From a bacterium TMED88 (lineage in GTDB: Bacteria; Myxococcota_A; UBA9160; UBA4427): a stretch of DNA of 50,778 nt. The position numbers and the translations under genes are program-made. Under the pieces are notes generated by a model. The model ran no database searches. It had not been told where the DNA came from and saw only the letters and a program-made list of their open reading frames with translations. Location of the stretch: contig NHEP01000110.1 of assembly GCA_002171515.1 (NCBI GenBank), positions 1 through 50,778 of the forward strand, read 5' to 3'. Positions 9,109-43,660 of this stretch are shown here, piece by piece (within the stretch, counting starts at the first letter, position 1; each line of letters opens with the position of its first letter).

Positions 9109-9426
9109 CTGACTGAATCCTCGAATGAAATAGATCGGAAGGCCACTGGGGCCGTGAGGCCGGGAGAGTAGCCGCCACAAAGCAAAACCGCCCTACCCCA
9201 TCGCCCCCGCCGGGGAATCGAAAACCGGAGCCTTCCGACCAGCCGACTCAGCCGAGCGCCCTCTGCGTCGGGTCGTCAAAGCTTGATGAGAATCCCATAA
9301 GACGGGTTGCCGGGCCGCTCGGCCTCCGTCACCCTGATCGGCTCGTCGCGTCCCCCGGCCCCGGCGCGCGTTGCGCACGCGACCACACCATTCACCGACC
9401 ACCGTTCCGTTCGAAGGAGATCAATC
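9109..9426. other. Divergent intergenic region between cysC and the acyl-CoA dehydrogenase gene
   Basis: About 318 bases between divergently transcribed genes. It is GC-rich and I find no credible gene in any frame; open frames here lack ribosome-binding sites and continue into neighbouring genes as shadows. Both genes need promoters in this region, but I could not identify a confident -35/-10 pair on either strand. At its right edge a strong ribosome-binding site (AAGGAGATCAATC) precedes the dehydrogenase ATG. Confidence 0.5.
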
Positions 9427-10752
9427 ATGGCTGGCCTCGAAAGCACTGACTCAATGTTCGACTTGCGAATGTCCGAAGGCGCCAAATCGCTCTTCGAGCA
9501 AGTCAAAGCCTTCATCGAAAAAGAGGTCGAGCCGGTCACTCATGAATTCCACGCGCTCGGCGAAGGGCGGGAAAATCGGTGGTCCTGGGCCCCGGGTCAA
9601 CTCGAGCTTCTGGACAGTGTAAAAGAAAAGGCAAAAGAACAGGGTCTGTGGAACTTCTTCCTGCCCGACGCCGATACAGGTGAAGGGCTTTCTAATCTCG
9701 ATTACGCGTATATCGCGGCGGAATTGGGCAAGAATCCGATCGCATCCGAGTGCCTCAACTGCTCGGCTCCGGACACTGGAAACATGGAAGTCCTCGAACG
9801 CGTGGGAACGGAAGAGCAAAAGAAGCGATGGCTCGAGCCCCTGCTTCGCGGCGAAATCCGGTCGGCCTACGCGATGACGGAGCCGGATCTCGCCTCCTCC
9901 GATGCCAAAAACATCTCCTGTGAAGCCGTACTCGTGGGCGACGAGTGGGTCATCAACGGAGAGAAGTACTACATCTCTGGAGCCGGAGATCCGCGCTGCA
10001 AAATCATGATCGTGATGGTTCGCACTAACCCGGACGGCCCGCTCCACCTTCGGCAATCCCAAATCCTCGTACCCACCGACGCACCCGGTTTTGAAATCTT
10101 GGGCCCGATGCATGTCTTCGGTCAAGACGATGCACCCCACGGCCACATGCACATCCGGTTCAAAGACTGCCGAGTGCCCAAGGAAAACATTCTCCTCGGC
10201 GAAGGACGCGGCTTTGAGATTTCCCAGGTCCGGCTCGGCCCCGGACGCATTCACCACTGCATGCGATCAATCGGAGCTGCGGAACGGGCCATAGGCTTGA
10301 TGGCCATGCGTGGCCTGTCGCGCCAAGGCTTCGGGAAACGACTGGCCGACCTCGGGGGCAATACGGAAACGATTGCGCGTGCACGCGTCGAAATTGAATC
10401 GCTTCGCATGATGGTCTTGAAAGCTGCGAAAGCAATGGACGAACTGGGCAACGCGCAGGCCAGGGTTTGGGTCAGCGCAGTCAAAGCATTGGTCCCGGAA
10501 CGCGTCTGCAAAATTATCGACGACGCCATCCAAATTCACGGTGCCACCGGCGTATCGCAATGGACCCCGCTGGCGCAAATGTATGCCGGGCAACGGACGC
10601 TTCGCCTGGCCGATGGCCCGGATGAAGTCCACTGGTTTGTGGTCGGAAGAGCCGAACTCGCACGTTGGAGCGAGGAAGGGGCAAACGAGTACGACCCCAA
10701 GAAAGCCTACATGGACCAGCCCGACGGACAAAAAGGCTTTACTGGGCCCTAA
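9427..10752 (+). CDS. Acyl-CoA dehydrogenase family protein, ACAD11/LvaC-like
   Basis: A 441-residue flavoenzyme of the acyl-CoA dehydrogenase fold. The start ATG has AAGGAG 7 bases upstream. Fold landmarks are the FAD/substrate-binding YAMTEPDLASSDAKN, WVINGEKYYISGA, the middle-domain FKDCRVPKENILLGEGRG, IHHCMRSIGAAERAI, the late IHGATGVSQWTPLAQMYAGQ and RLADGPDEVH close to the end. The last motif and the overall length resemble the dehydrogenase half of ACAD10/ACAD11 and bacterial LvaC rather than FadE or short-chain dehydrogenases. In those relatives the enzyme removes phosphate from 4-phospho-acyl-CoA instead of doing simple alpha,beta-oxidation. A kinase gene of the matching fold lies tail-to-tail 9 bases away. 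Specificity is inferred from family and neighbourhood. Confidence 0.92.
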   Translation: MAGLESTDSMFDLRMSEGAKSLFEQVKAFIEKEVEPVTHEFHALGEGRENRWSWAPGQLELLDSVKEKAKEQGLWNFFLPDADTGEGLSNLDYAYIAAELGKNPIASECLNCSAPDTGNMEVLERVGTEEQKKRWLEPLLRGEIRSAYAMTEPDLASSDAKNISCEAVLVGDEWVINGEKYYISGAGDPRCKIMIVMVRTNPDGPLHLRQSQILVPTDAPGFEILGPMHVFGQDDAPHGHMHIRFKDCRVPKENILLGEGRGFEISQVRLGPGRIHHCMRSIGAAERAIGLMAMRGLSRQGFGKRLADLGGNTETIARARVEIESLRMMVLKAAKAMDELGNAQARVWVSAVKALVPERVCKIIDDAIQIHGATGVSQWTPLAQMYAGQRTLRLADGPDEVHWFVVGRAELARWSEEGANEYDPKKAYMDQPDGQKGFTGP

Positions 10753-10761
10753 AAGGCCGTC

Positions 10762-11943
10762 TCAATCGCTCAATTCGTCAAGCAGCCGACCGGCGGATTC
10801 CGCCAGGAGAGGAATGCGCGATGCAATGAGCTTCATACGTTCGTCCTGACTGTCGCCCACCTTCCAGCGGTGATGAAGCTGGGCCACGACCGTAGCGGTC
10901 TTCCACAAGGCGAAGGCCTCGTACCAAACCGCGGTCGACAGATCGAGGCCTGTGCGCTCGGCATAAAGGGCTTTCACCTCTGCACGACTGGGCAGGCCCA
11001 TTTTCTCCATCCCTGGGTGCTGTTGCCGCGGAAGCTTGCCGTCGGAGGGATCGGGCCAGTAGTTGAGAAGCGTGCCTAGATCGATCAATGGGTCACCCAG
11101 AGTCGTCATGTCCCAATCAAAAAAGGCAATCACCCGATCGGGGTCGCGTGGGTCGAACATACAGTTGTCGAGCTTTAGATCGTTATGTACGAATGAAATT
11201 CTCTGAGACTGCGGCTGATGCGTCGCCAAGCGCTGATGGACTACACCCATTGCCTCGTCGAACTCCGGCTCAGCGACGAGGTCCCAGCGCTTTTTCCACC
11301 CTTTCACCTGACGCTCCACGAATCCTGCAGGACGCCCAAGGTCAGAAAGCCCGCAACTTTCCGGATCTAACCGGTGAAAATCCGCGATCGCTTCCACCAG
11401 AGCGTATCCAACCCGCCGGCCGACATCCGGATAACCCCGCATGCTTTCGGGGATCACGCCCCGAATGACCTCGCCCCGTTTGCGCTCCATGATAAAAAAG
11501 TCTGCGCCGGCAATTTCGTGATCATCGCAAAACAGGATTGCGCGTGGGGCGCGATCAAACTGCTCCCAAAGACGAGAAAGCACCTTGTATTCTCGCTTCA
11601 TATCGTGGGCACCCGGCGCCAAAGTGCCAAAGGGAGGGCGTCGCAGGACGAATTCTTCTTCTCCCAAGCGAATCAAGTAGGTTAGGTTGGCTGCCCCATT
11701 CGGAAACTGGAGCACTTCAAAATCGCTGTCGGTCATGCGATCGCCCGGCAAAGCCTGTCGCAAGTATTCTTCGATTCTGGACCAGTCAAGATTTTCCCCG
11801 GACCGAACCTCTCCCACCTCTAGTGGGGCCTCCGAGCAAAACGGATCCACCCCCTCCGAAGCCGAGCGTCCAGTGCCCGACCTGCTGCCTGCCGCTCCTG
11901 TACCGGACTGAGCGCTTCGCTCCGGTCGTTCTCGATTTGCCAT
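10762..11943 (-). CDS. Aminoglycoside-phosphotransferase-fold kinase (ACAD10/ACAD11 N-terminal-like)
   Basis: A 393-residue kinase-like protein. After about 50 low-complexity residues come the nucleotide-binding lobe (FPNGAANLTYLIRLGEEEFVLRRPP split over two strands, with PPFGTLAPGAHDMKREY typical of the ACAD10/11 kinase half), the catalytic loop FVHNDLKLDN and the metal-binding AFFDWDMTTLGDPLIDLG. HNDLKLDN and DWD are the APH-family catalytic and magnesium ligands, so it should be active. This is not evidence for antibiotic resistance: this subfamily phosphorylates hydroxy-acyl substrates in the characterised LvaA and ACAD10/11 cases. The start ATG has no obvious ribosome-binding site, so the true start may be somewhat downstream in the low-complexity leader. 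Confidence 0.9.
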   Translation of the reverse strand: MANRERPERSAQSGTGAAGSRSGTGRSASEGVDPFCSEAPLEVGEVRSGENLDWSRIEEYLRQALPGDRMTDSDFEVLQFPNGAANLTYLIRLGEEEFVLRRPPFGTLAPGAHDMKREYKVLSRLWEQFDRAPRAILFCDDHEIAGADFFIMERKRGEVIRGVIPESMRGYPDVGRRVGYALVEAIADFHRLDPESCGLSDLGRPAGFVERQVKGWKKRWDLVAEPEFDEAMGVVHQRLATHQPQSQRISFVHNDLKLDNCMFDPRDPDRVIAFFDWDMTTLGDPLIDLGTLLNYWPDPSDGKLPRQQHPGMEKMGLPSRAEVKALYAERTGLDLSTAVWYEAFALWKTATVVAQLHHRWKVGDSQDERMKLIASRIPLLAESAGRLLDELSD

Positions 11944-12095
11944 AGACAGGACTATAACGGCTCCCCCCCGACCCCCGAAACATCCGACCGGGTCATCAGG
12001 CTCAGCTTGCCCTCAAGGCGCCGAAACGAGTACCGTTGTCCAAAAGGTCCCTACGTGAATCCCCCTCACCCCGTTTCAAAAGATGGAGCAAGGTC

Positions 12096-13259
12096 ATGAG
12101 CTACGCCGAGACTCGTCGCATCATTGACGTGGACAGCCATGTCATTGAGCTCGATGACTTTCTTCTCAATGCCGCTCACCCCGACGAGCGAGCCTGTATT
12201 CCCACCATGTCGGAACAGCGCGAGCTTGCGGTTTCCGAGGAAGCCCTCGCGCGTGCCCGGCAACACCTAAAAAGGCGTCGCGAGGATCCCCAGGTCATGG
12301 CCCGATTTGAAGCCGCTCTCCTCGACAATCGCCGAAGCGGTTGGAGTCGACTTGGGGCTTTTGACCGAGAAGAGCGATCGCACACTTTGGATCTACTCGG
12401 CTTCGAAAAACAACTCATTCTTCCCACCTTTGCATTCCATCAGGTCGATCAAGTTCGGCAACCCGAAGCCAAGGAAGTCTGCACAAGAGTCCTCAATCGG
12501 GCGATGGGGGCTTTCTGCTCAGAGGACCCTCGCTTGTACGCAATCGGCTACGTCCCGCTGGCCCTGGGCCCGGAGAAATCCGCAGCACTCATCGAAGAGG
12601 CTTTTGAGGACGGGTGCTACAGCGTAATGGTTGACACAAATCAGCCCGACCCCACCGCGCGCTCGTTTAGCCACGCCGACTATGACGACGCTTGGAATCG
12701 ATTCACCGAGCACGACAGGCCCTTTATCATTCATGTTGCAGTCAACGGCCAGTATCAAGCTGTTTCGCCCAGCTTTCAAAATAATGGCCAGCCGATGATG
12801 GAACTCGGCGGCGACGCCGCAACCACACCGCTCGGCTTGATCGCGATCAAAAACAGCGCCGAGCTGTTTCTTTCGGCGATGATTTTCGACGGCGTCTTCC
12901 AGCGCCATCCTCGGCTTCGATGCATCTCGATGGAACACGGCGCTTTCTGGCTCCCCGCATGGCTGAAAGGGCTCGACTTCGCCGCTCAATCCTTGCGACA
13001 CATCAATCCAATGGATCAAGCCCCCTCGGAAATCGCCCGCCAACACATTCGGGTTTCGCCATTTGCCGGCGAACCCGTCGGCTGGATCATTGAGAATGTC
13101 GGGCCCGAGATGCTCGTCTTTGCGTCGGATTACCCGCACCCGGAAGGCACCTCCGACCCGATTCGAAAGTTCGAAGCCACGATGACCGAGTGCGATGACG
13201 TCACCCGAAAAGCATTCTATTACGACAATATGGCGCAATGGATGGGACTTTCGCAGTGA
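12096..13259 (+). CDS. Amidohydrolase 2 family protein
   Basis: A 387-residue TIM-barrel metal-dependent hydrolase of the amidohydrolase-related (PF04909) group, which includes decarboxylases and lactonases. The N-terminal metal motif reads IIDVDSHVIELDDF, a barrel strand carries CISMEHGAFWLPAWLKGL, and the C-terminal FASDYPHPEGTSDP holds the conserved aspartate. The chosen ATG has GGAG 7 bases upstream; the frame is open for 20 more codons without a better signal. The sequence style, particularly the YPHPEGTSDP end, is that of a subgroup common in mycobacteria and delta-type bacteria, often near acyl-CoA or aromatic degradation genes. The exact reaction is unknown. It overlaps the luciferase-like gene that follows. 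Confidence 0.9.
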   Translation: MSYAETRRIIDVDSHVIELDDFLLNAAHPDERACIPTMSEQRELAVSEEALARARQHLKRRREDPQVMARFEAALLDNRRSGWSRLGAFDREERSHTLDLLGFEKQLILPTFAFHQVDQVRQPEAKEVCTRVLNRAMGAFCSEDPRLYAIGYVPLALGPEKSAALIEEAFEDGCYSVMVDTNQPDPTARSFSHADYDDAWNRFTEHDRPFIIHVAVNGQYQAVSPSFQNNGQPMMELGGDAATTPLGLIAIKNSAELFLSAMIFDGVFQRHPRLRCISMEHGAFWLPAWLKGLDFAAQSLRHINPMDQAPSEIARQHIRVSPFAGEPVGWIIENVGPEMLVFASDYPHPEGTSDPIRKFEATMTECDDVTRKAFYYDNMAQWMGLSQ

Positions 13260-14137
13260 ATGCACAAACGCGAAAGTCCCTCGACATCATCGCCTTTGCC
13301 GACGGACTCCCTTCAGCTGAACTGCTTCGATTTGTTCAGCGGCTCGAAACCCTCGGCTACGAAACTGTCTGGATTCCCGAATTTTTCGGTCGAGAACCCT
13401 ATTCCACTGTCGCGTACCTATTGGGCCGTACCCGCCACATCAAGATCGCTACGGGCATTGCCAACGTGTACGCCCGAGACGCAATCGTCACCGCACAACA
13501 TCGACATGGCCTGGCCGAGCTCTCGGAAGGGCGGTTCGTCTTGGGGCTTGGCGTATCGCACCCCCCCATGGCGGAAGCCCATGGGGCGGTATGGCAACCT
13601 CCGCTCAAGAAAATGCGTGAGTACCTGGACGTGCTTGAGTCTTTCAATGTTCAAGCTCCAAAACCTCAAACTCTCGCCCCCCTCTGGATCTCCGCCCATG
13701 GACCGAAGCTCCTGGGTTTGGCGGCGGACCGTGCAGACGGAGCCAACACTTATCTTGCCCCACCCGCTCATACCCGGAACGCCCGTCAGATTCTCGGACC
13801 AGACAAACGGCTGAATGTCGTCTTGCACTGCTGCCTCTGTGAGGATCCCGTTTCGGCGCGAGCCGCCGCACGAAGGGCCCTCTCCATTTATATGCCTCTT
13901 CCTGCTTACCATCGCCTCTGGCAAGCCTGGGGCTTTGGACCCGCGGATTACGAGAACGGCCCGAGTGACCGGCTCATCGACGCACTCGTCGCATGGGGCA
14001 GCCAGGAAGCGATCGCGGCGAGGATGAACGCACACCTCGAGGCGGGCGCGACTCAAATTGTGATGAGCCCAGTTCAAGCTGAAGGCCGTGAAACGCCGTG
14101 GGCTTTGATCGAAGCCATGGCACCCCAGCCCGTTTAG
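13256..14137 (+). CDS. Luciferase-like (LLM class) flavin or F420-dependent oxidoreductase
   Basis: A 293-residue protein with the bacterial-luciferase-like barrel. Diagnostic parts are GYETVWIPEFFGREPYSTVA, RTRHIKIATGIANVYARDA, the FVLGLGVSHPPM loop and WISAHGPKLLGLAADRADG. Members use FMN or F420 to oxidise or mono-oxygenate diverse substrates; cofactor cannot be decided by eye. I prefer a GTG start overlapping the amidohydrolase stop by 4 bases (GTGA), which implies translational coupling; an ATG 18 bases upstream (13238) is the alternative and would add six residues. Together with the amidohydrolase and the following FMN enzyme it forms a three-gene catabolic unit. Confidence 0.88.
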   Translation: MNAQTRKSLDIIAFADGLPSAELLRFVQRLETLGYETVWIPEFFGREPYSTVAYLLGRTRHIKIATGIANVYARDAIVTAQHRHGLAELSEGRFVLGLGVSHPPMAEAHGAVWQPPLKKMREYLDVLESFNVQAPKPQTLAPLWISAHGPKLLGLAADRADGANTYLAPPAHTRNARQILGPDKRLNVVLHCCLCEDPVSARAAARRALSIYMPLPAYHRLWQAWGFGPADYENGPSDRLIDALVAWGSQEAIAARMNAHLEAGATQIVMSPVQAEGRETPWALIEAMAPQPV

Positions 14138-14181
14138 ATGATGCCCAAAAGAGATCACTTCACCCACGCAAGAGGATTTCA

Positions 14182-15351
14182 ATGAGCCGCCCGACTCTTC
14201 GCACCGAACTCTGTGACCGGATCGGAATCGAGTACCCAATCATCTCAGCTGGCATGGGGCCTGTCGCGGGAACGGGCGAGCCGGTTGCCACGGCAGAACT
14301 TGCCGCCGCCGTCTCCAATGCGGGCGGACTTGGGATGATCGGCGGCGTCTCCTACTCGCCCGATCAGCTGCGCGCCGAAATACACAAAGTGCGATCACTG
14401 ACCGATCGGCCATTTGGCGTGGACCTTCTCTTGGCTCCCTCTTTCTTGATCCCGATTGGGAAAAAGGAACGGGCCGCCGCCGCAAAGATGAAACCCCCGT
14501 CGCTTCCGTCCGGGCACATTGAGACGATGCAGAAAATCGCAGAGGAACTCGACATCGAATGGCACTCTGCCCCGCCGGATACAACAGAAATGGGAAGCTG
14601 GGTCCCTGAAGGAAAGAGTTGGGCGGGGTCCCAAATCGAAGTACTCCTTGAGGAGGAGGTGCCCGTCTTCGCCTCCGGTCTGGGATCCCCCGAGCCCTTC
14701 GCCAAGACCCTAAAGGCTCACGGCGTCACCATCCTCGCTTTGGTCGGCAACGTGCGGGCCGCTGAACAAGTCCGCTCCGGCGGCGCTGACTACGTGGTCG
14801 CCCAGGGAACAGAAGCCGGGGGCCATACAGGCCGCATCGGCACCCTAGCCTTACTTCCGCAGGTCATGGAGGCCGTGGACCCCACCCCGGTGATCGCCGC
14901 GGGGGGCGTGTCCAGCGGCCGCGCTCTCGCGGGCATCCTGGCCACCGGGGCCGTCGCAGGATGGTGCGGTTCGGTTTTCCTCGTTGCGGACGAAGCCAAT
15001 CAGCCTGAACTCCAAAAGGAGCGAATCCTGAGCGCAGCCGCCGAAGACACCGTCGTGACCCGACTCTATAGCGGAAAGACCATGCGAAATATCCGCAATC
15101 CGCTCATTGAAGCGTGGGAGCGACACGGTCTTGATGCACTGCCGATGGGTCAGCAGGCCGAATTGATTAAAGATATCAGTCACTCGATCCGCGTGGCGGG
15201 CCGAGAAGAGTTACTGATGAATGCAGCAGGACAGACCGCGGGCATGCTGAAACAGCGAAGGCCCGCGGGTCAAATTGTCGCAGAGATGGCCCAGGAGGCC
15301 GCCGAAATTCTTGCCCATGACCTAGGCACCCGGATCCAGGCCTCGACTTAG
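14182..15351 (+). CDS. Nitronate monooxygenase / 2-nitropropane dioxygenase family FMN protein
   Basis: A 389-residue FMN-dependent TIM-barrel enzyme. Supporting segments are IEYPIISAGMGPVAGTGEP, NAGGLGMIGGVSY, RPFGVDLLLAPS, the family fingerprint YVVAQGTEAGGHTGRIGT, and VIAAGGVSSGRALAGILATGA, all typical of the NPD/NMO family. Real members range from nitronate oxidation to enoyl reduction. The start ATG has AGAGGA 6 bases upstream. It follows the luciferase-like gene by 44 bases on the same strand and its stop faces the stop of an acyl-CoA synthetase gene 32 bases away. The substrate is not identifiable. Confidence 0.9.
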   Translation: MSRPTLRTELCDRIGIEYPIISAGMGPVAGTGEPVATAELAAAVSNAGGLGMIGGVSYSPDQLRAEIHKVRSLTDRPFGVDLLLAPSFLIPIGKKERAAAAKMKPPSLPSGHIETMQKIAEELDIEWHSAPPDTTEMGSWVPEGKSWAGSQIEVLLEEEVPVFASGLGSPEPFAKTLKAHGVTILALVGNVRAAEQVRSGGADYVVAQGTEAGGHTGRIGTLALLPQVMEAVDPTPVIAAGGVSSGRALAGILATGAVAGWCGSVFLVADEANQPELQKERILSAAAEDTVVTRLYSGKTMRNIRNPLIEAWERHGLDALPMGQQAELIKDISHSIRVAGREELLMNAAGQTAGMLKQRRPAGQIVAEMAQEAAEILAHDLGTRIQAST

Positions 15352-15383: not shown

Positions 15384-17087
15384 CTAATGCGTATTCACGA
15401 CACGAGCCGCTTCTTCTCGAAGTGCGCGCTTCAGGATCTTTCCCGACCCAGTCCTCGGAAGAGGCTCATGCCGCAGATCGAAATAACGAGGGATGGCAAA
15501 ATTAGACAAACGCGTTTTAAGAAATTCTCGCAGCTCGGCCTCGGTGCAATCACCCGAAACAAAAACCGTCGCTCCGACTTCCTCGCCTAATCGCTCGTCG
15601 GGAACACCGTAAACACTGGCTTCAACAACAGCTGGGCACTCGAGAATTGCGGCCTCGACACCCCCGCAACCAATGTTTTCCCCGCCCCGAATCACCATGT
15701 CCTTGATGCGGTCGACAATATAAAGAAAACCCTCTTCGTCCAAGTAAGCGACATCCCCGGTTCTCATCCAGCGACCGTCGAGAAAGGTTTCAGCATCCGC
15801 TTCGGGCCGATTCCAATAGCAACGAAAAATAGAGGCACCCCGAATCTGCAGCTCGCCGCGCTCCCCAAGCAGGCACTCTCGACCTTCCTCATCCACGACA
15901 CGGAGGTCCACCACAGCCGACGACCGCCCAGAACTCTCGGGATGATCGAGGTACTCCGTTCCGACAATCCCACTCCCAATGGCATTGGTTTCCGTCATCC
16001 CCCAGCCGGTGTTGGGTTGGGCCCGTCGAAAGGTCCGATCAATGCTCTTCACCTGGGCCGGGGCGCGAGGCGCTCCTCCGCCCCCCACCACTAAGAGGGA
16101 GCCTAAGTCACGCCCTGTGCGCTCTGCTGCAGAAACCAAGTCACCCGTCATCGCGGCGGGCGCCACAAAATTCGAGACCTGCTCGCGTTCGATTAAATCA
16201 GCGGCCTCTTCGGGATCCCATTTATACATACAAACAACTCGCCGCTGAGCCCGGTAGCTCGCCAAAAAGACCGCATGAGACCCCGTCGCATGAAACAAGG
16301 GCACGCCAAGCAAAGTCGCCGGTTGGGTTTTCGGCGCCGCAGGCTCTCGTCCCTCCATGACCGCTCCAGCCACAACATCGAGTTCCCACGAGAGCAAAGC
16401 GGTCAAGATGCTGCGGTGAGACGAAACAACACCTTTCGGATGTCCGGTGGACCCTGAAGTGTAGAAAATCGTGGCATCATCTTCAGGCAAAAGGGCCACT
16501 TCGGGCATAGGAACACGCGAAGTAACTTCATGAAGTGCCTCGCTGAGCGGGCTCACCTCCAGCCCGTAAGCCTCGGACGCTCTCACCCCCAAAACAGAAA
16601 GGTCGGGAAAAGCGGTCTCCGACTGGGCCAACCTTCGAAGGCGTTCCTCATCGGCCAGCAAAACTCGAGCACCGCTATCGCTCAGACCGTAGGCGAGTTC
16701 ATCCGGTTGCCAGAGCGAGTTCATCGCGACGGCAATGGCTCCGACTGACGTCGCCGCCATGAAGGAAAGGATCCACTCGGGGTAATTTCGCATAGAAATC
16801 GCCACACGGTCGCCCTTTCGAACGCCATAATGCTCAATCAGCAAATGAGCGATCCGACTCGACACCTGCCAAGCCTCTTCAAAACTGAGACGTTCATCGC
16901 CGAATACGATGAAGGGCTTGTCACTCCGGTTCTCTTCATAGAGATCACGAAGAGTCGACGGTCCATTCCTGAAAGATAGATACGCCTGCCCGTACTGCTG
17001 AATCGTTTGAAGCTCGTACCGCTGGCCGGGCCCAGTCAAGAGCGCCAAGGCCTCTGACCGAGTCATCTTTCTCGAACCATTCCTCAT
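15384..17087 (-). CDS. Acyl-CoA synthetase (AMP-forming, ANL superfamily)
   Basis: Activates a carboxylic acid, probably a fatty or related acid, to its CoA thioester via an acyl-adenylate. The 567 residues carry the ATP/AMP loop YTSGSTGHPKGV (about 209-220), the GWGMTETNAIGSG motif, TGDVAYLDEEGFLYIVDR, the hinge RIKDMVIRGGENI and the C-terminal catalytic lysine in PRTGSGKILKRAL. The start ATG has GGAG 8 bases upstream. It lies 65 bases downstream of iscS on the same strand, so may read through from the long minus-strand operon, or may have its own promoter in that gap. Functionally it fits the surrounding acyl-CoA dehydrogenase and hydratase genes. Confidence 0.92.
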   Translation of the reverse strand: MRNGSRKMTRSEALALLTGPGQRYELQTIQQYGQAYLSFRNGPSTLRDLYEENRSDKPFIVFGDERLSFEEAWQVSSRIAHLLIEHYGVRKGDRVAISMRNYPEWILSFMAATSVGAIAVAMNSLWQPDELAYGLSDSGARVLLADEERLRRLAQSETAFPDLSVLGVRASEAYGLEVSPLSEALHEVTSRVPMPEVALLPEDDATIFYTSGSTGHPKGVVSSHRSILTALLSWELDVVAGAVMEGREPAAPKTQPATLLGVPLFHATGSHAVFLASYRAQRRVVCMYKWDPEEAADLIEREQVSNFVAPAAMTGDLVSAAERTGRDLGSLLVVGGGGAPRAPAQVKSIDRTFRRAQPNTGWGMTETNAIGSGIVGTEYLDHPESSGRSSAVVDLRVVDEEGRECLLGERGELQIRGASIFRCYWNRPEADAETFLDGRWMRTGDVAYLDEEGFLYIVDRIKDMVIRGGENIGCGGVEAAILECPAVVEASVYGVPDERLGEEVGATVFVSGDCTEAELREFLKTRLSNFAIPRYFDLRHEPLPRTGSGKILKRALREEAARVVNTH

Positions 17088-37210: not shown

Positions 37211-40200
37211 ATGCAATACACACCGACCTTTGAGTGGACAGAAGAAGACAATCGCGACCTCGCGACGCTAAAAGAACTCCTCGTTCCGCGAGTCGAAACG
37301 TGCCTCGATCAGTTCTATGAGTGGGTCATGACCGAAGGGCCCGGACCTCGCTTCCTGACCCCGAGCACGATCGACCGAGTCCGAACTCTCCAGCAGCGCT
37401 TCTGGATGGAATTTCTCAGCTCGCCCCCGAGCCCGGCCTACGCGGAGTCACGCGCCGTCATCGGCATTCGGCATGCCGAAATCGGCCTCGACTCCCAGCT
37501 TTTCCTCGCGTCAACGAGAAAATTTCAGAAACTTCTCGAGCACGAGCTCAACGTCAGCAGCCCGTCTGAGACAATTCGCAACAAACTACTTCATGTGTTG
37601 GCGAAAAAAATAGAGATCGACATCACGATCATCATAGACGCCTACACAACGCATTACACGGCGATCGAAAAAAGCAGATCCTCTTTTACAGATGAGCTCA
37701 TCACACTGCTTGACCAACTCACCCGTGGAAACTTCAATGTCCAAATTCCGGAGGCCAGAACCCCCAAAGACCGCAACTTTGTTGAAGCTTTGAGACAACT
37801 CACGAACACTCTCCAGACGGTCGCCCAGCAGACCCGAGAAATCAGCAGAGGTCGCTACACCTTTGGCCCTGTCTCTTCAGAAAACTTCCTAGGCCTCGCC
37901 CTCCACGATATGGCACAAGCCCTTAAGGAGACAGCCGAGACGAACGAAGAATACACCTGGAAACTCACGGGTATTAATCGCCTCTCCGTCATCCTCCGTG
38001 GCGACTCCGCCACGGAAGTCATCGCCAACAATGCGGCCCAGTTCGTGGGACGTTACGTCGGGGCTCCGCTTGCATCGATCTATGTTTACAATTCTGAATC
38101 CGATGCGTATGTCCTGACGGGTCAGCACGGATCCTCATCGGCCAACAAAACCCATATACCAATCGGCGAAGGCTACATCGGGCAGTGTGGCACATCGATG
38201 GAATTCATCGAAATCGCCGACATCCCTTCAGACAGCCTGCCCATACAAACAGGGCTCGGCGAAATTAGCCCGCGAAACCTTTTATTCGCCCCCCTCCATT
38301 CTTCAACCAGAAGCATCGGCGTTTTGCAACTCGCGACATTCAAACCCGTCACGCTAGTCGTACGCGACTTCCTCGAAATCGCCGGACTCGCACTCGCCAG
38401 CGCCCTCGAATCGTCCGTTTCTCGCACAACCGCCGCGACACTCCTTCAGAATTCGCTCTCACTCACTACAGAGCTTGAGGCCCAACACGACGCTCTGGTC
38501 ACTGCAAACCAAGAACTAGAGGCGCGGACAGAGCAGCTTGAAATCTCAGAGACTCAACTTCGAACGCAGCAAAATGCCCTTCGCGAAACGAACAAGTTGA
38601 TGCAGGAAACCAACAAGAGCCTTCGAACCACTGAAGCGCTCGCCCAAAAGAGAAACTTGGACCTTGAAGCTGCACGTTTACAAATCGAAGAAAAGGCGGA
38701 GGCTTTAGAACGCGCAAGTCAATATAAATCCGACTTTCTCGCCAACATGTCACACGAGCTCCGGACGCCCCTCAACAGCGTGCTTCTCCTCTCGGGACAT
38801 CTCGCAGAAAACACCCAAGGGCGCCTCGACGAGTCAGAAGTCGAATCCGCAGAAGTCATCCATAAAAGCGGTACGGATCTCCTCTCCCTCATCAACGAGG
38901 TGCTCGATCTTGCCAAAATCGAAGCAGGCTACCTCGAAATTGAGCGCCAAACGATGGACCTGAAAAATCTCACAGCCGCTCTTGAGCAAGAGTTTGGCCA
39001 TCAGGCTGCGGCCAAAGACCTCGAATTCCGAACTCAGCTTTCCGACAATTCACCCAGAGAACTACTGACCGATAGCCGACGCGTTGAGCAGATTCTCAAA
39101 AACCTCATCTCGAATGCCCTGAAGTTCACAGAGACCGGAAACATTCTCATCGATTTCAATCTCACTCGGAAAGGGAAGGAAGTTTCGAGCCGGATGACTC
39201 ACGAGACGGACTTGCTCCAAATCGACGTGATCGACACAGGCATCGGAATCGCGCCGGATCAAACCGAAAACATCTTCGAGGCATTTCAGCAAGCCGACAG
39301 TGGCACCTCTCGACGCTACAGCGGCACCGGCCTTGGGCTGTCCATATCGAGGCAGCTCGCTCATCTTTTGGGTGGCGAGCTTATATTGACGCAATCTTCC
39401 GAAAAGGGCTCCACCTTTACGCTGATGATTCCTCTCGTCCTCCCGGATTCTCAGATCAGGCCCCCACTGGGTCCGGATACAACACCTCATCAAATCAGCC
39501 AGCACCGGAAAACAGCCCGCAAACAAACGCCCGAAACGCTTTCCACCGAAACTCTTGACGACGATCGCCAGGATTTATCGGAGACGGATGACGCGGTCCT
39601 GCTCATCGAAGATGATAGAAATTTTGCAAAGTTTACTCGCGACCAAATTCGTCAGAGAGGATTCAAATGCCTACTGGCAGCGACTGGCGAGGAGGGAATC
39701 CGACTCGCTCAAGAGCATCAACCCTCCGGCATCCTCCTCGACATCAATCTTCCAGGGATCGACGGCTGGGCCGTTCTCTCGAGCCTGAAAGACGACATCG
39801 ACACTCGCCACATTCCAGTTCACTTCGTTTCAATCGACGAACAGCAACCCGCAGCGTTCCAGCGCGGAGCAATCGGTTACGTCAGCAAGCCGACTTCCGT
39901 GATCGACCTCAATTCATGCCTGGATACGATCTCTGAATGCCCGAGAACCATGCATCGCACTCTTCTGATCGCGCACAGCAATCCCAAAGTGAGAGCAAAA
40001 GTTCGCGGAACTTTAGACATGAACGGAATTCAGTTTCTCGAGTCCGAGAAGACCGCCGAAACGGTCCAGCTGGCCGCGACGCATGCACCTGACTGCATCG
40101 TTATGGGAACTCAGCTCGGCGATGGATCAAGCTACAAAGTGATTTCCCAAATCCTCGCTAAAACCTCGGCCCTTCCTCCCATCTTGCTATTTGATGATGC

Positions 40201-40753
40201 ACCCATCGACCAATCCGAACTCAATCACTTTTCCGAATACGCCAAAGCCAACACAATTGTCAGAGTCCATTCAAGCGAGCGCCTATTTGACGAAGTCTCT
40301 CTACTCTTCCACTGGGCCATTAGCGACCTCCCCGCTCAGCAAAGGGAAATCATCACTCATGTCCGCAGCAGCGACGACTGCCTAAGGGGCCGAAAAATCC
40401 TACTCGTCGAAGACGATATGAGAAGCGCTTTCGCTCTCTCCGGGATTTTGATCAACAAAGGAATGGAGGTTCAGATTGCGGAAGACGGCGAGCTTGGACT
40501 GAAAAAGTTAGAGAGCAACGATTTTGACCTCATTCTCACTGACGTCACCATGCCGATCATGAATGGCAATGAAATGATATCAAGAATCCGACAGCAGGAT
40601 CAATATCGCAATCTTCCGATTCTTGCGCTGACCGCAAATGCAATGAAAGAGGAACGCAGCAAGTCCATCCGAGCGGGAGCGAATGATTACCTCACCAAAC
40701 CCATCGACATTCAGAAACTTATTTCAGCAATGAGAGTTTGGCTCTTTCGCTAG
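37211..40753 (+). CDS. Globin-coupled hybrid histidine kinase with three receiver modules
   Basis: A soluble 1180-residue sensor kinase. Residues about 8-150 form a globin-coupled sensor domain: FEWTEEDNRDLATLKELLVP opens it, RHAEIGL carries the proximal heme histidine (His88) as in HemAT, and IDITIIIDAYTTHY closes it. A HAMP-like helix stretch follows, then a GAF-like domain (about 260-400), a coiled coil (about 415-505), HisKA with SHELRTP (His515), the ATPase domain (NLISNALKF, DTGIGI, GTGLGLSISRQLA) and three receiver modules. The first has Asp844/Lys893 and the third Asp1111/Lys1163; the middle (about 915-1040) has Gly966 where Asp is expected and is probably inactive. There is no membrane segment, so it likely reads oxygen, NO or CO in the cytoplasm. 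cheR follows by 2 bases. Confidence 0.92.
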   Translation: MQYTPTFEWTEEDNRDLATLKELLVPRVETCLDQFYEWVMTEGPGPRFLTPSTIDRVRTLQQRFWMEFLSSPPSPAYAESRAVIGIRHAEIGLDSQLFLASTRKFQKLLEHELNVSSPSETIRNKLLHVLAKKIEIDITIIIDAYTTHYTAIEKSRSSFTDELITLLDQLTRGNFNVQIPEARTPKDRNFVEALRQLTNTLQTVAQQTREISRGRYTFGPVSSENFLGLALHDMAQALKETAETNEEYTWKLTGINRLSVILRGDSATEVIANNAAQFVGRYVGAPLASIYVYNSESDAYVLTGQHGSSSANKTHIPIGEGYIGQCGTSMEFIEIADIPSDSLPIQTGLGEISPRNLLFAPLHSSTRSIGVLQLATFKPVTLVVRDFLEIAGLALASALESSVSRTTAATLLQNSLSLTTELEAQHDALVTANQELEARTEQLEISETQLRTQQNALRETNKLMQETNKSLRTTEALAQKRNLDLEAARLQIEEKAEALERASQYKSDFLANMSHELRTPLNSVLLLSGHLAENTQGRLDESEVESAEVIHKSGTDLLSLINEVLDLAKIEAGYLEIERQTMDLKNLTAALEQEFGHQAAAKDLEFRTQLSDNSPRELLTDSRRVEQILKNLISNALKFTETGNILIDFNLTRKGKEVSSRMTHETDLLQIDVIDTGIGIAPDQTENIFEAFQQADSGTSRRYSGTGLGLSISRQLAHLLGGELILTQSSEKGSTFTLMIPLVLPDSQIRPPLGPDTTPHQISQHRKTARKQTPETLSTETLDDDRQDLSETDDAVLLIEDDRNFAKFTRDQIRQRGFKCLLAATGEEGIRLAQEHQPSGILLDINLPGIDGWAVLSSLKDDIDTRHIPVHFVSIDEQQPAAFQRGAIGYVSKPTSVIDLNSCLDTISECPRTMHRTLLIAHSNPKVRAKVRGTLDMNGIQFLESEKTAETVQLAATHAPDCIVMGTQLGDGSSYKVISQILAKTSALPPILLFDDAPIDQSELNHFSEYAKANTIVRVHSSERLFDEVSLLFHWAISDLPAQQREIITHVRSSDDCLRGRKILLVEDDMRSAFALSGILINKGMEVQIAEDGELGLKKLESNDFDLILTDVTMPIMNGNEMISRIRQQDQYRNLPILALTANAMKEERSKSIRAGANDYLTKPIDIQKLISAMRVWLFR

Positions 40754-40755
40754 CC

Positions 40756-41694
40756 ATGAATGGCCAAAAGACCGTTTACAACAAAAGAGAGTCGTCAAAA
40801 CGCGACACCATTAGATTGGATGACGCAACGAATTTGATCTTGAAGGCATCAGGATACGATCTTCGTCCATTCGCTGCCGAGTACACCCGCGCACGCCTCA
40901 ATCGGCATTTGCTCCCGCCCCACCATGCACCCAGTCCATCGACTTCTCCCCACAGCCAAATCACCCAACTCAGTCGCCAAGATGTGATTTCCGCGCTCTC
41001 GCTCAACGTCACAACCATGTTTCGCGATCCGCTCTTCTACTGCACTCTGAGGCGGGAAGTCCTCCCCGCGCTGAACGCTCGCAAGCATCTACGCATTTGG
41101 GAAGTCGGTTGCGCCACAGGCGAAGAGTCCTACTCGCTAGCCATTACCCTCAACGAACTGGGATTCGCAAATCGCTACACGATTGTCGCCACTGATTTCA
41201 ACGCGTCGGCGATCGAGAGCGCTCGGCGTGGGAAATACAACATAAAAAAAGCCAGAGCATTCACGCACAATTATCATAGAGCGGACGGGCAATACTCTTT
41301 CTCAGACTATTACTCCGCCACCAGCGAATTCTTAATAGTTTCCCCGGAATTGCGGCGAAACATTTTTTTTAGGGAAGCGGATGTGACAAAGGAAGGGATC
41401 GATTTTCGACCCGACCTGATCGTCTGCCGAAATGTGATCTTCTACTTTTCGCGAAGGCAACAAATAGAAACGCTCGAATTACTTTCAGGATCCCTCAACG
41501 ACGGTGGTTTTCTCTGCATCGGCTCAAAAGAGCCGTTGCCCGCCCACGCCCTGAAATTCGAAATGAGGGAGATCTCGGAAGGTGGGAGGATCTTCGCCGT
41601 CCAGGCGCAAGACAGAGCGAAACCAGGACTCTGTCACCGCGGCAACCTCCGCAGCCTTACTTTGACCGACCAACCACGAAGGAATCAGGAATAG
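40756..41694 (+). CDS. cheR: CheR-type protein-glutamate methyltransferase
   Basis: A 312-residue SAM-dependent methylase of the CheR family. The N-terminal helical domain (LILKASGYDLRPFAAEYTRA) is followed by NVTTMFRDPLFY, the SAM motif WEVGCATGEESYSLAITL, VATDFNASAIESARRGKYN, and the late CRNVIFYFSRRQQIETLELL with GGFLCIGSKEPL. Chemotaxis CheR enzymes methylate glutamates on receptors, but no receptor or CheB gene is adjacent. CheR-like proteins alongside hybrid kinases are known to act on non-chemotaxis sensors. The ATG used lies 2 bases after the kinase stop. Whether the kinase itself is the substrate is inference. Confidence 0.92.
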   Translation: MNGQKTVYNKRESSKRDTIRLDDATNLILKASGYDLRPFAAEYTRARLNRHLLPPHHAPSPSTSPHSQITQLSRQDVISALSLNVTTMFRDPLFYCTLRREVLPALNARKHLRIWEVGCATGEESYSLAITLNELGFANRYTIVATDFNASAIESARRGKYNIKKARAFTHNYHRADGQYSFSDYYSATSEFLIVSPELRRNIFFREADVTKEGIDFRPDLIVCRNVIFYFSRRQQIETLELLSGSLNDGGFLCIGSKEPLPAHALKFEMREISEGGRIFAVQAQDRAKPGLCHRGNLRSLTLTDQPRRNQE

Positions 41695-41698
41695 AGCA

Positions 41699-43660
41699 AT
41701 GGACGAGAAACAAACGATTCTCATTGTTGATGACCAAGACGCGAACCTTATTGCTCTCGAGAGGCTCCTCGATCGCTGTGGGGCCAAGGTTGTACGCGCA
41801 TCAAGTGGCAATGAAGCACTCGCCATCTCTCTCCATCATCGGTTCGCATTAGCAATCCTGGACGTCCAGATGCCTAACATGGATGGCTTCGAGCTGGCAA
41901 ATTTGCTGACATCCCGCCCAGAGAACGAAACGTTACCCATTGTTTTCGTGTCTGCGGTCTACACGGACCCTTCGCATCAATATCGCGGATACGGAGCAGG
42001 AGCAGTCGACTTTTTGATCAAACCCTATGCCCCCGAAGTCTTACTTGCGAAGGTCGATTTCTTTCTTCTCCTCGATCGTCAACGCCAGCTGTTGTTGGAT
42101 CGAATTGCAATAGAGGAATCAAAAACTTATCTCGAGGGAATCCTCACAGCGATGACCGATGCCGTCATCGTTTGCGCCGGTGATCTCAGCATTCGGACCG
42201 TCAACCAAGCTGCACAAACTCTCCTAGGCAGAGATCAATCCGAACTCTTGGGAGAGCCTGTCGATATGATTTTTCCTGAGAAAATTTTACCTTTCGACCC
42301 AGAAGATCAGACGACGCGGGGCAATCTTTCCAAGATCAGATTCGATGAATTGGAGCTGGTACGATCAGACGGAAGCGGCGTGCCCGTAATCCTCAATCTC
42401 TCTTTTATGGGAACGGGAGGTTCTGCCAACGATGGCTTCGTGCTCACAGCCTTAGACATCACAGAGCAAAAAAAATCTGAGAGGGAGCGAGCCCAGCTTG
42501 AGGACCAACTTCGGCACGCTCAGCGTCTAGAATCCGTCGGACGCCTAGCCGGCGGGGTCGCCCACGACTTTAACAATCTTCTGACGGTCATCTTTGCATG
42601 CTGTGAATTCATGTCTGAAAATCTTGGCGCATCTGACCCTCTGACCACAGAGGTCGACGACATCCTCGAAGCCTCCTCACGTGGCGCCGACTTGGTCCGT
42701 CAGCTACTGGCTTTTGGCCACAAGCAAATCCTTCGACCCGAAATCGTTGAGCCCAATAGCATCGTTGACAGAACGGCGAAAATGCTGAGGCGGACGATTG
42801 GGGAACACATTCAAATCTCCACCGAACTAGTCGAGAAGGAAGTTTTGATATCCGTTGATCCCGTACAGCTCACTCAAGTTCTAATGAATCTCGGAGTCAA
42901 TGCTCGAGACGCCATGCGCCAGGGCGGAGAACTGAGATTCTCAACTTCAACAGAGCGGCAAAGGCTTCCCACTGGCAATCCCTCAGCTTCTGAATGTGAG
43001 TATTTTCGAATAGAGGTCAGTGATACCGGCTGCGGAATGACGCCTCAAGTACTCGAACGAATATTTGAACCCTTCTTCTCGACAAAGAAGCCCGGAGAAG
43101 GGACAGGATTAGGCCTATCCGTCGCACATGGAATCATCGCGCAGAGCGGTGGCTATATCTCGGCCGAAAGTACAAGCGACGAGGGGTCGCGGTTCACCAT
43201 AGACTTCCCACTCAGACTGGACGGCGAGATATTTGAACAGGCCGAGACGAATAAACGGGACCGGGGCTGCCAGAACGGGACTGTCCTTGTAGTCGATGAT
43301 GATGAAACGCTTCAAAAAGTTGTCGCACGGAGCCTTAGACCCCGCGGTTACCAAGTTGTGCAAGCCAATAACCTAGAGGATGCTCTCGAACTCGCTCGAC
43401 GATCGAAGATTGAAGTACTCCTGACCGACGTCGTCATGCCAGAGCAAAGTGGACCCGAGGTGGCCCGCGCTCTTCTCGAAGAAACACCGGACATGGCCGT
43501 AGTTTTCATGTCTGGACATGCACACGACTTACTTGGGCACCATGGGGTTGAAGCAGGCCAAGTCTCGTTCATCCAGAAGCCATTTTTGCCCGATACGCTC
43601 CTGAGGCTACTGGCCGATGTGATGAATGGCGAAACTAAGGCGGTCGGCCTTCCAGCCTGA
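41699..43660 (+). CDS. Hybrid sensor histidine kinase (REC-PAS-HisKA-HATPase-REC)
   Basis: A 653-residue soluble kinase. The N-terminal receiver has DDQD, Asp55 in LAILDVQMPNMDGFEL and Lys108 in FLIKPYAPEV; a PAS domain (about 145-255, TDAVIVCAGDLSIRTVNQAA, SELLGEPVDMIFPE) follows. The kinase core reads GRLAGGVAHDFNNLLT with His289, MNLGVNARDAM, SDTGCGM and GTGLGLSVAHGI, the AHDFNNLL subtype. A second receiver (about 528-635) has Asp577 in LLTDVVMPEQSGPE and Lys627 in FIQKPFL. An internal receiver before the sensor suggests that it gets phosphate from another kinase, possibly the globin-coupled one upstream. It starts 4 bases after cheR. Confidence 0.92.
   Translation: MDEKQTILIVDDQDANLIALERLLDRCGAKVVRASSGNEALAISLHHRFALAILDVQMPNMDGFELANLLTSRPENETLPIVFVSAVYTDPSHQYRGYGAGAVDFLIKPYAPEVLLAKVDFFLLLDRQRQLLLDRIAIEESKTYLEGILTAMTDAVIVCAGDLSIRTVNQAAQTLLGRDQSELLGEPVDMIFPEKILPFDPEDQTTRGNLSKIRFDELELVRSDGSGVPVILNLSFMGTGGSANDGFVLTALDITEQKKSERERAQLEDQLRHAQRLESVGRLAGGVAHDFNNLLTVIFACCEFMSENLGASDPLTTEVDDILEASSRGADLVRQLLAFGHKQILRPEIVEPNSIVDRTAKMLRRTIGEHIQISTELVEKEVLISVDPVQLTQVLMNLGVNARDAMRQGGELRFSTSTERQRLPTGNPSASECEYFRIEVSDTGCGMTPQVLERIFEPFFSTKKPGEGTGLGLSVAHGIIAQSGGYISAESTSDEGSRFTIDFPLRLDGEIFEQAETNKRDRGCQNGTVLVVDDDETLQKVVARSLRPRGYQVVQANNLEDALELARRSKIEVLLTDVVMPEQSGPEVARALLEETPDMAVVFMSGHAHDLLGHHGVEAGQVSFIQKPFLPDTLLRLLADVMNGETKAVGLPA

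Follow-up and report, generated by a model that had tools for sequence, protein, structure and literature searches.

The window analysed here is a 50,778-nucleotide contig of the bacterium TMED88, in which two convergent genes lie at positions 9427 to 11943. The first runs on the forward strand from an ATG at 9427 to a stop codon at 10750-10752, and the second on the reverse strand from an ATG at 11943 to a stop codon at 10762-10764. The features of the locus are listed below.

9414..9419, + strand: Shine-Dalgarno-like AAGGAG, read from the sequence, 7 bases before the ATG at 9427
9427..10752, + strand: ACAD11/LvaC-type acyl-CoA dehydrogenase-fold enzyme, 441 aa (Pfam, phmmer, active-site signature and tree); predicted 4-phosphoacyl-CoA phosphate-eliminating enzyme
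10231..10266, + strand: codons of RLGPGRIHHCMR, residues 269-280 (alignment with mouse and human ACAD11)
10612..10614, + strand: codon of D396, the catalytic aspartate (mouse ACAD11 D753) by alignment
10753..10761, no strand: gap of 9 bases between the two convergent stop codons
10762..11943, - strand: APH-fold (PF01636) kinase of the HND branch, 393 aa (Pfam, phmmer, motif alignment and tree); predicted 4-hydroxyacyl-CoA kinase

The initial annotation had described tail-to-tail genes with 9 bases between their stops, and a count on the sequence agreed with this. No terminator-like site or bidirectional terminator was found in the gap at 10753-10761. In the closest relative genome, which belongs to the same genus, both the layout and the surrounding genes are unchanged. 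The kinase and the dehydrogenase are separate open reading frames in the window, and the suggested search for fused homologues in relatives revealed no single open frame containing both among the loci examined. One relative (genome G014, locus L194) has an open frame of 1421 aa with the kinase at its end; this was rejected as a fusion, since no Pfam family matches the first 1020 aa, and was taken as a chance open frame.

The dehydrogenase contains all three Acyl-CoA_dh domains by Pfam, with E-values down to 1e-29. When it was compared by phmmer with all PDB sequences, the first four matches were mouse ACAD11 (1e-118), a mutant of mouse ACAD11, human ACAD11 (2wbi; 7e-116) and 4hr3 (4e-112), a Mycobacterium protein, whereas the best ordinary ACAD reached 4e-35. 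The comparison with ACAD11 drawn in the initial annotation was upheld. Identity with the ACAD domain of ACAD11 is ~50%, and on these matches the likeness to ACAD11 is judged to be far beyond chance.

In mouse ACAD11, D753 is the base, the phosphate is held by R626, H634 and R637, together with the HCMR motif, and R631 is a residue common to ACADs (PMC12440821). Non-conservative changes of R626, H634 and R637 were the most disruptive to elimination and led to accumulation of the phospho-intermediate (PMC12440821). Alignment indicates that all of the ACAD11 residues whose importance for elimination is known from mutagenesis or structure are kept in the window dehydrogenase, as R269, R274, H277-C278-M279-R280 and D396. 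RLGPGRIHHCMR holds the equivalents of mouse R626, R631, H634, C635, M636 and R637, with R269 as the phosphate-binding arginine and residues 277 to 280 as the HCMR motif. D396 sits in RLADGPDEVH where usual ACADs have glutamate, as is characteristic of the ACAD10/ACAD11/LvaC clade. The phosphate-site residues are present in all close relatives and absent from the ordinary ACADs of the same genome. In a quick tree with long outgroup rows, in which both relevant splits are starred, the dehydrogenase and ACAD11 fell into one 55-row clade (SH-aLRT 99), with conventional ACADs and the ordinary dehydrogenases of its own genome outside, and the subclade of the window dehydrogenase (35 rows) was distinct with a support of 100. 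Clustering with ordinary beta-oxidation enzymes, which the initial annotation had named as evidence against its proposal, was looked for and not seen; the R/HCMR site and the aspartate are intact within the ACAD11 clade.

Other ACAD11-like proteins are also encoded in this genome (G000). A second one (43%; contig C164, 7888-9087; locus L136, 7894-9123, + strand, and also L010) has FQYAMG in place of HHCMR at the phosphate site, and locus L096 shows a similar loss. The L136 protein may have reverted to ordinary dehydrogenation, or it may act on another leaving group. A third, more distant protein (38%; contig C110, 6729-7820; locus L137) carries RLGGGRIHHAMR, a motif that also occurs in operon L216 on a Rhodococcus opacus plasmid.

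The reverse-strand product has an APH domain by Pfam (1.9e-47), and its catalytic motifs, reported earlier as intact, were located at residues 253-260 (HNDLKLDN) and 276-278 (DWD). Residues D220, N225, R86 and R176 of ACAD11 align with D255, N260, R117 and R211 of the window kinase respectively. The HxD loop, the DxD metal site and the CoA-contact arginines of the APH/PKL fold are all present, with D255 and N260 as catalytic residues, D276 in the metal site and R117 and R211 as the CoA-contact equivalents. Full-length alignments scored 270 bits with 9o56, 158 bits with the ACAD11 kinase domain and 133 bits with 3dxp, and identity with the ACAD11 kinase domain is only 30%. In the tree, the ACAD11 kinase domain groups with 3dxp and two plasmid kinases (support 100), and the window kinase is not on that branch; it belongs to a separate 89-row branch of mostly HND-type kinases (support 100), which occurs in Pseudomonadales, Acidimicrobiales and Saprospiraceae. 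On these alignments and this tree, the kinase is an ACAD11-kinase homologue that has the right residues and lies on another branch.

The pair most likely encodes a split version of the ACAD10/ACAD11 reaction on 4-hydroxyacyl-CoA. The kinase would use ATP to phosphorylate the hydroxyl group of 4-hydroxyacyl-CoA. The ACAD-fold flavoenzyme would take the resulting 4-phosphoacyl-CoA, with D396 abstracting the alpha proton, FAD being used transiently, and R269, H277 and R280 stabilizing the leaving phosphate. Phosphate and 2-enoyl-CoA would then be released, the latter entering beta-oxidation. We infer this activity, the order of its steps and the 4-position of the hydroxyl from what is observed, namely the sequence, the clade, the active-site residues and the pairing elsewhere. 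Both the kinase step and the elimination step have been established with ACAD10/11, with LvaA/LvaC and with a pair from Burkholderia (PMC12440821, PMC11342911), and the Burkholderia pair replaces ACAD10 domains in vitro (PMC11342911).

Alternatively, the ACAD might eliminate in the manner of ACAD11 while its neighbouring kinase acts on some other hydroxylated CoA ester, with the hydroxyl elsewhere on the chain or on a branched or cyclic substrate; the pair would then remove a different hydroxyl. The separate HND branch would agree with this, as would the Rhodococcus relatives, whose gene sets include lipid-transfer proteins, thiolase and CoA transferases and resemble those for the catabolism of rings or side chains; but the kinase keeps the residues to which catalysis and CoA contact were assigned in ACAD11, and the phosphate site of the ACAD is motif-identical to that of ACAD11, which makes a different hydroxyl rather unlikely.

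Pairing was surveyed in 65 loci on genome contigs with the kinase alone as bait, the HxMR motif defining an ACAD11-type gene. Such a gene was found within 4 kb of the kinase in 19 of the 65 loci (12 co-directional, 5 convergent and 2 divergent), which span Myxococcota-like bacteria, Bacteroidota, Bacillota, Actinomycetota and Proteobacteria. When the two genes are not neighbours, the close dehydrogenase type is present in seven of eight relatives whose kinase is at least 65% identical, compared with 16 of 52 relatives without such a kinase (Fisher p = 0.0037, in a test that ignores shared ancestry). Similarly, a dehydrogenase of at least 70% occurs in 8/8 gammaproteobacteria with the kinase versus 10/194 others of the order, relatedness again being ignored. 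Many genomes contain the dehydrogenase without this kinase type, so that its partners may be interchangeable or it may serve other purposes as well. In Haematobacter, the dehydrogenase shares a cluster with a kinase from the ACAD11/3dxp branch, and in Sulfitobacter the plasmid that carries the dehydrogenase also has, ~14 kb from it, a phosphotransferase gene within a neighbouring beta-oxidation cluster; these two cases suggest that kinase partners can be exchanged. Clustering of the neighbours gave no conserved third gene outside the genus or family, and neighbours in the gammaproteobacterial and lone-kinase loci are unrelated (UPF0014, methylcrotonyl-CoA carboxylase-like, TetR, sulfatase, MatE and others).

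Both the neighbourhood of the genes and their co-occurrence speak for a functional pair. Adjacency across several phyla in all orientations, co-occurrence that persists when the genes are separated and an active site unlike that of an ordinary dehydrogenase make it very improbable that an ACAD merely stands by chance beside a small-molecule kinase with an unrelated substrate, even with the two genes not adjacent in many genomes and the surrounding genes not conserved beyond the genus. That the enzyme is an ordinary long-chain acyl-CoA dehydrogenase merely resembling ACAD11 is scarcely credible given the tree placement, the HCMR motif and the lack of activity of ACAD11 itself on plain acyl-CoAs (PMC12440821), although NCBIfam gave generic dehydrogenase matches only, all under cut-offs, and Pfam only general dehydrogenase domains.

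The convergent form was found in six related genomes including the window, with 3 to 75 bases between stops, and co-directional and separated arrangements are commoner elsewhere. The convergent layout is a lineage trait. The initial annotation had seen in this order a puzzle of how expression is balanced, which proved of little regulatory interest. Since no terminator-like site lies in the gap and the layout is a trait of the lineage, no balance or antisense mechanism is claimed, and special regulation of the pair is not indicated.

No genes for DUF6285 (which we take to be the LvaB family), LvaD or LvaE adjoin the pair, and the exact substrate is therefore not fixed by context. Nor does the window contain a ligase operon, an LvaB-like protein or a reductase linked to the pair. 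An acyl-CoA ligase at 15384-17087 (- strand), with a strong but sub-threshold match to the steroid-24-oyl-CoA synthetase CasG, lies 4 kb away and is the sole window gene that could belong to the pair; nothing ties it to the pair. In this genome, DUF6285 is found only on another contig, where an APH kinase adjoins it (C102, 13000-13827), possibly as an LvaA/LvaB-like pair apart from that of the window. Elsewhere in the window, three overlapping co-directional genes at 12036-15351 (+ strand) encode an Amidohydro_2 protein, a TIGR03620 F420-dependent LLM oxidoreductase (above cut-off) and a nitronate monooxygenase/FabK-like protein, which suggests use of coenzyme F420 in the lineage. A run at 37211-43660 (+ strand) encodes a large hybrid histidine kinase, whose N-terminus resembles a globin-type sensor by eye, a CheR-like methyltransferase and a second hybrid kinase.

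Close relatives of the dehydrogenase (67-71%) are found in operons on Rhodobacteral plasmids. In Sulfitobacter and Haematobacter, these contain an acyl-CoA ligase, 3-hydroxyacyl-CoA dehydrogenase, enoyl-CoA hydratase and two SDRs, a content that fits the conversion of 4-hydroxyacyl-CoA for beta-oxidation. The catabolic operons with an ACAD11-type ACAD on Sulfitobacter plasmids (L213, L214 and L222) and a Haematobacter plasmid (L215) are conserved across Rhodobacterales and possibly represent a complete plasmid-borne 4-hydroxy acid pathway.

The 4-hydroxy-acid catabolic module proposed in the initial annotation was largely borne out: the ACAD11 clade, the phosphate site and the pairing and co-occurrence favour it, and the placement of the kinase in another branch and the lack of linked LvaB, LvaD or LvaE count against it. 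Nothing narrows the substrate to 4-hydroxyvalerate. Tentatively, the HND kinases could be a second hydroxyacyl-CoA kinase family whose partners are ACAD11-type eliminases. Such a family would have another substrate range, perhaps 4-hydroxyacyl-CoAs that are longer, branched or derived from rings, and would not require an LvaB-like partner.

The chemistry and the bacterial two-gene form are already known, and the window pair is a new example rather than a new system. Mammals fuse the kinase and the phosphate-eliminating enzyme as ACAD11, by which 4-hydroxy fatty acids enter fat breakdown. With the window pair, the known range of the split kinase/eliminase route for 4-hydroxy acids would come to include an uncultured Myxococcota-like lineage as well as a distinct branch of kinases. 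Genes labelled just 'phosphotransferase' or 'acyl-CoA dehydrogenase' in these lineages can thereby be assigned a joint role that is open to testing, and the label 'aminoglycoside phosphotransferase' on such kinases should not be taken as antibiotic resistance.

Among known systems, mouse and human ACAD11 and ACAD10 (PDB 8v3u, 8v3v and 2wbi) have the same folds for both activities as the window pair, with an ACAD that is ~50% identical and has the full R/HCMR/D site, and the catalytic and CoA-contact residues of the kinase are kept. In contrast to these proteins, the window has two separate convergent genes, no HAD domain and a kinase that is 30% identical and of another branch. The levulinate operon of Pseudomonas putida, in which LvaA and LvaC are encoded with LvaB, LvaD and LvaE, resembles the window in its separate kinase and ACAD genes, and LvaC is reported to have the catalytic aspartate and residues otherwise specific to ACAD10/11 (PMC12440821). 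Unlike that operon, the window has no linked LvaB-like, ketoreductase or CoA-ligase genes; LvaA and LvaC were compared by description only. The closest solved structure to the window kinase is PDB 9o56 (41% identity, E 1.7e-79), annotated as an aminoglycoside phosphotransferase, on which a literature search found no report. Its catalytic loop is HYDYKLNN as opposed to HNDLKLDN, and ACAD11-type genes are found close to its relatives in Cytobacillus and Halobacillus, as one is to the window kinase. Similarly, FXW36_RS00915 and RS00910 on a Rhodococcus opacus plasmid are ACAD and phosphotransferase neighbours, the kinase being ~49-51% identical to that of the window. Unlike the window pair, they form a co-directional operon within a larger catabolic cluster, and their ACAD belongs to another subclade (36%) with RLGGGRIHHAMR.
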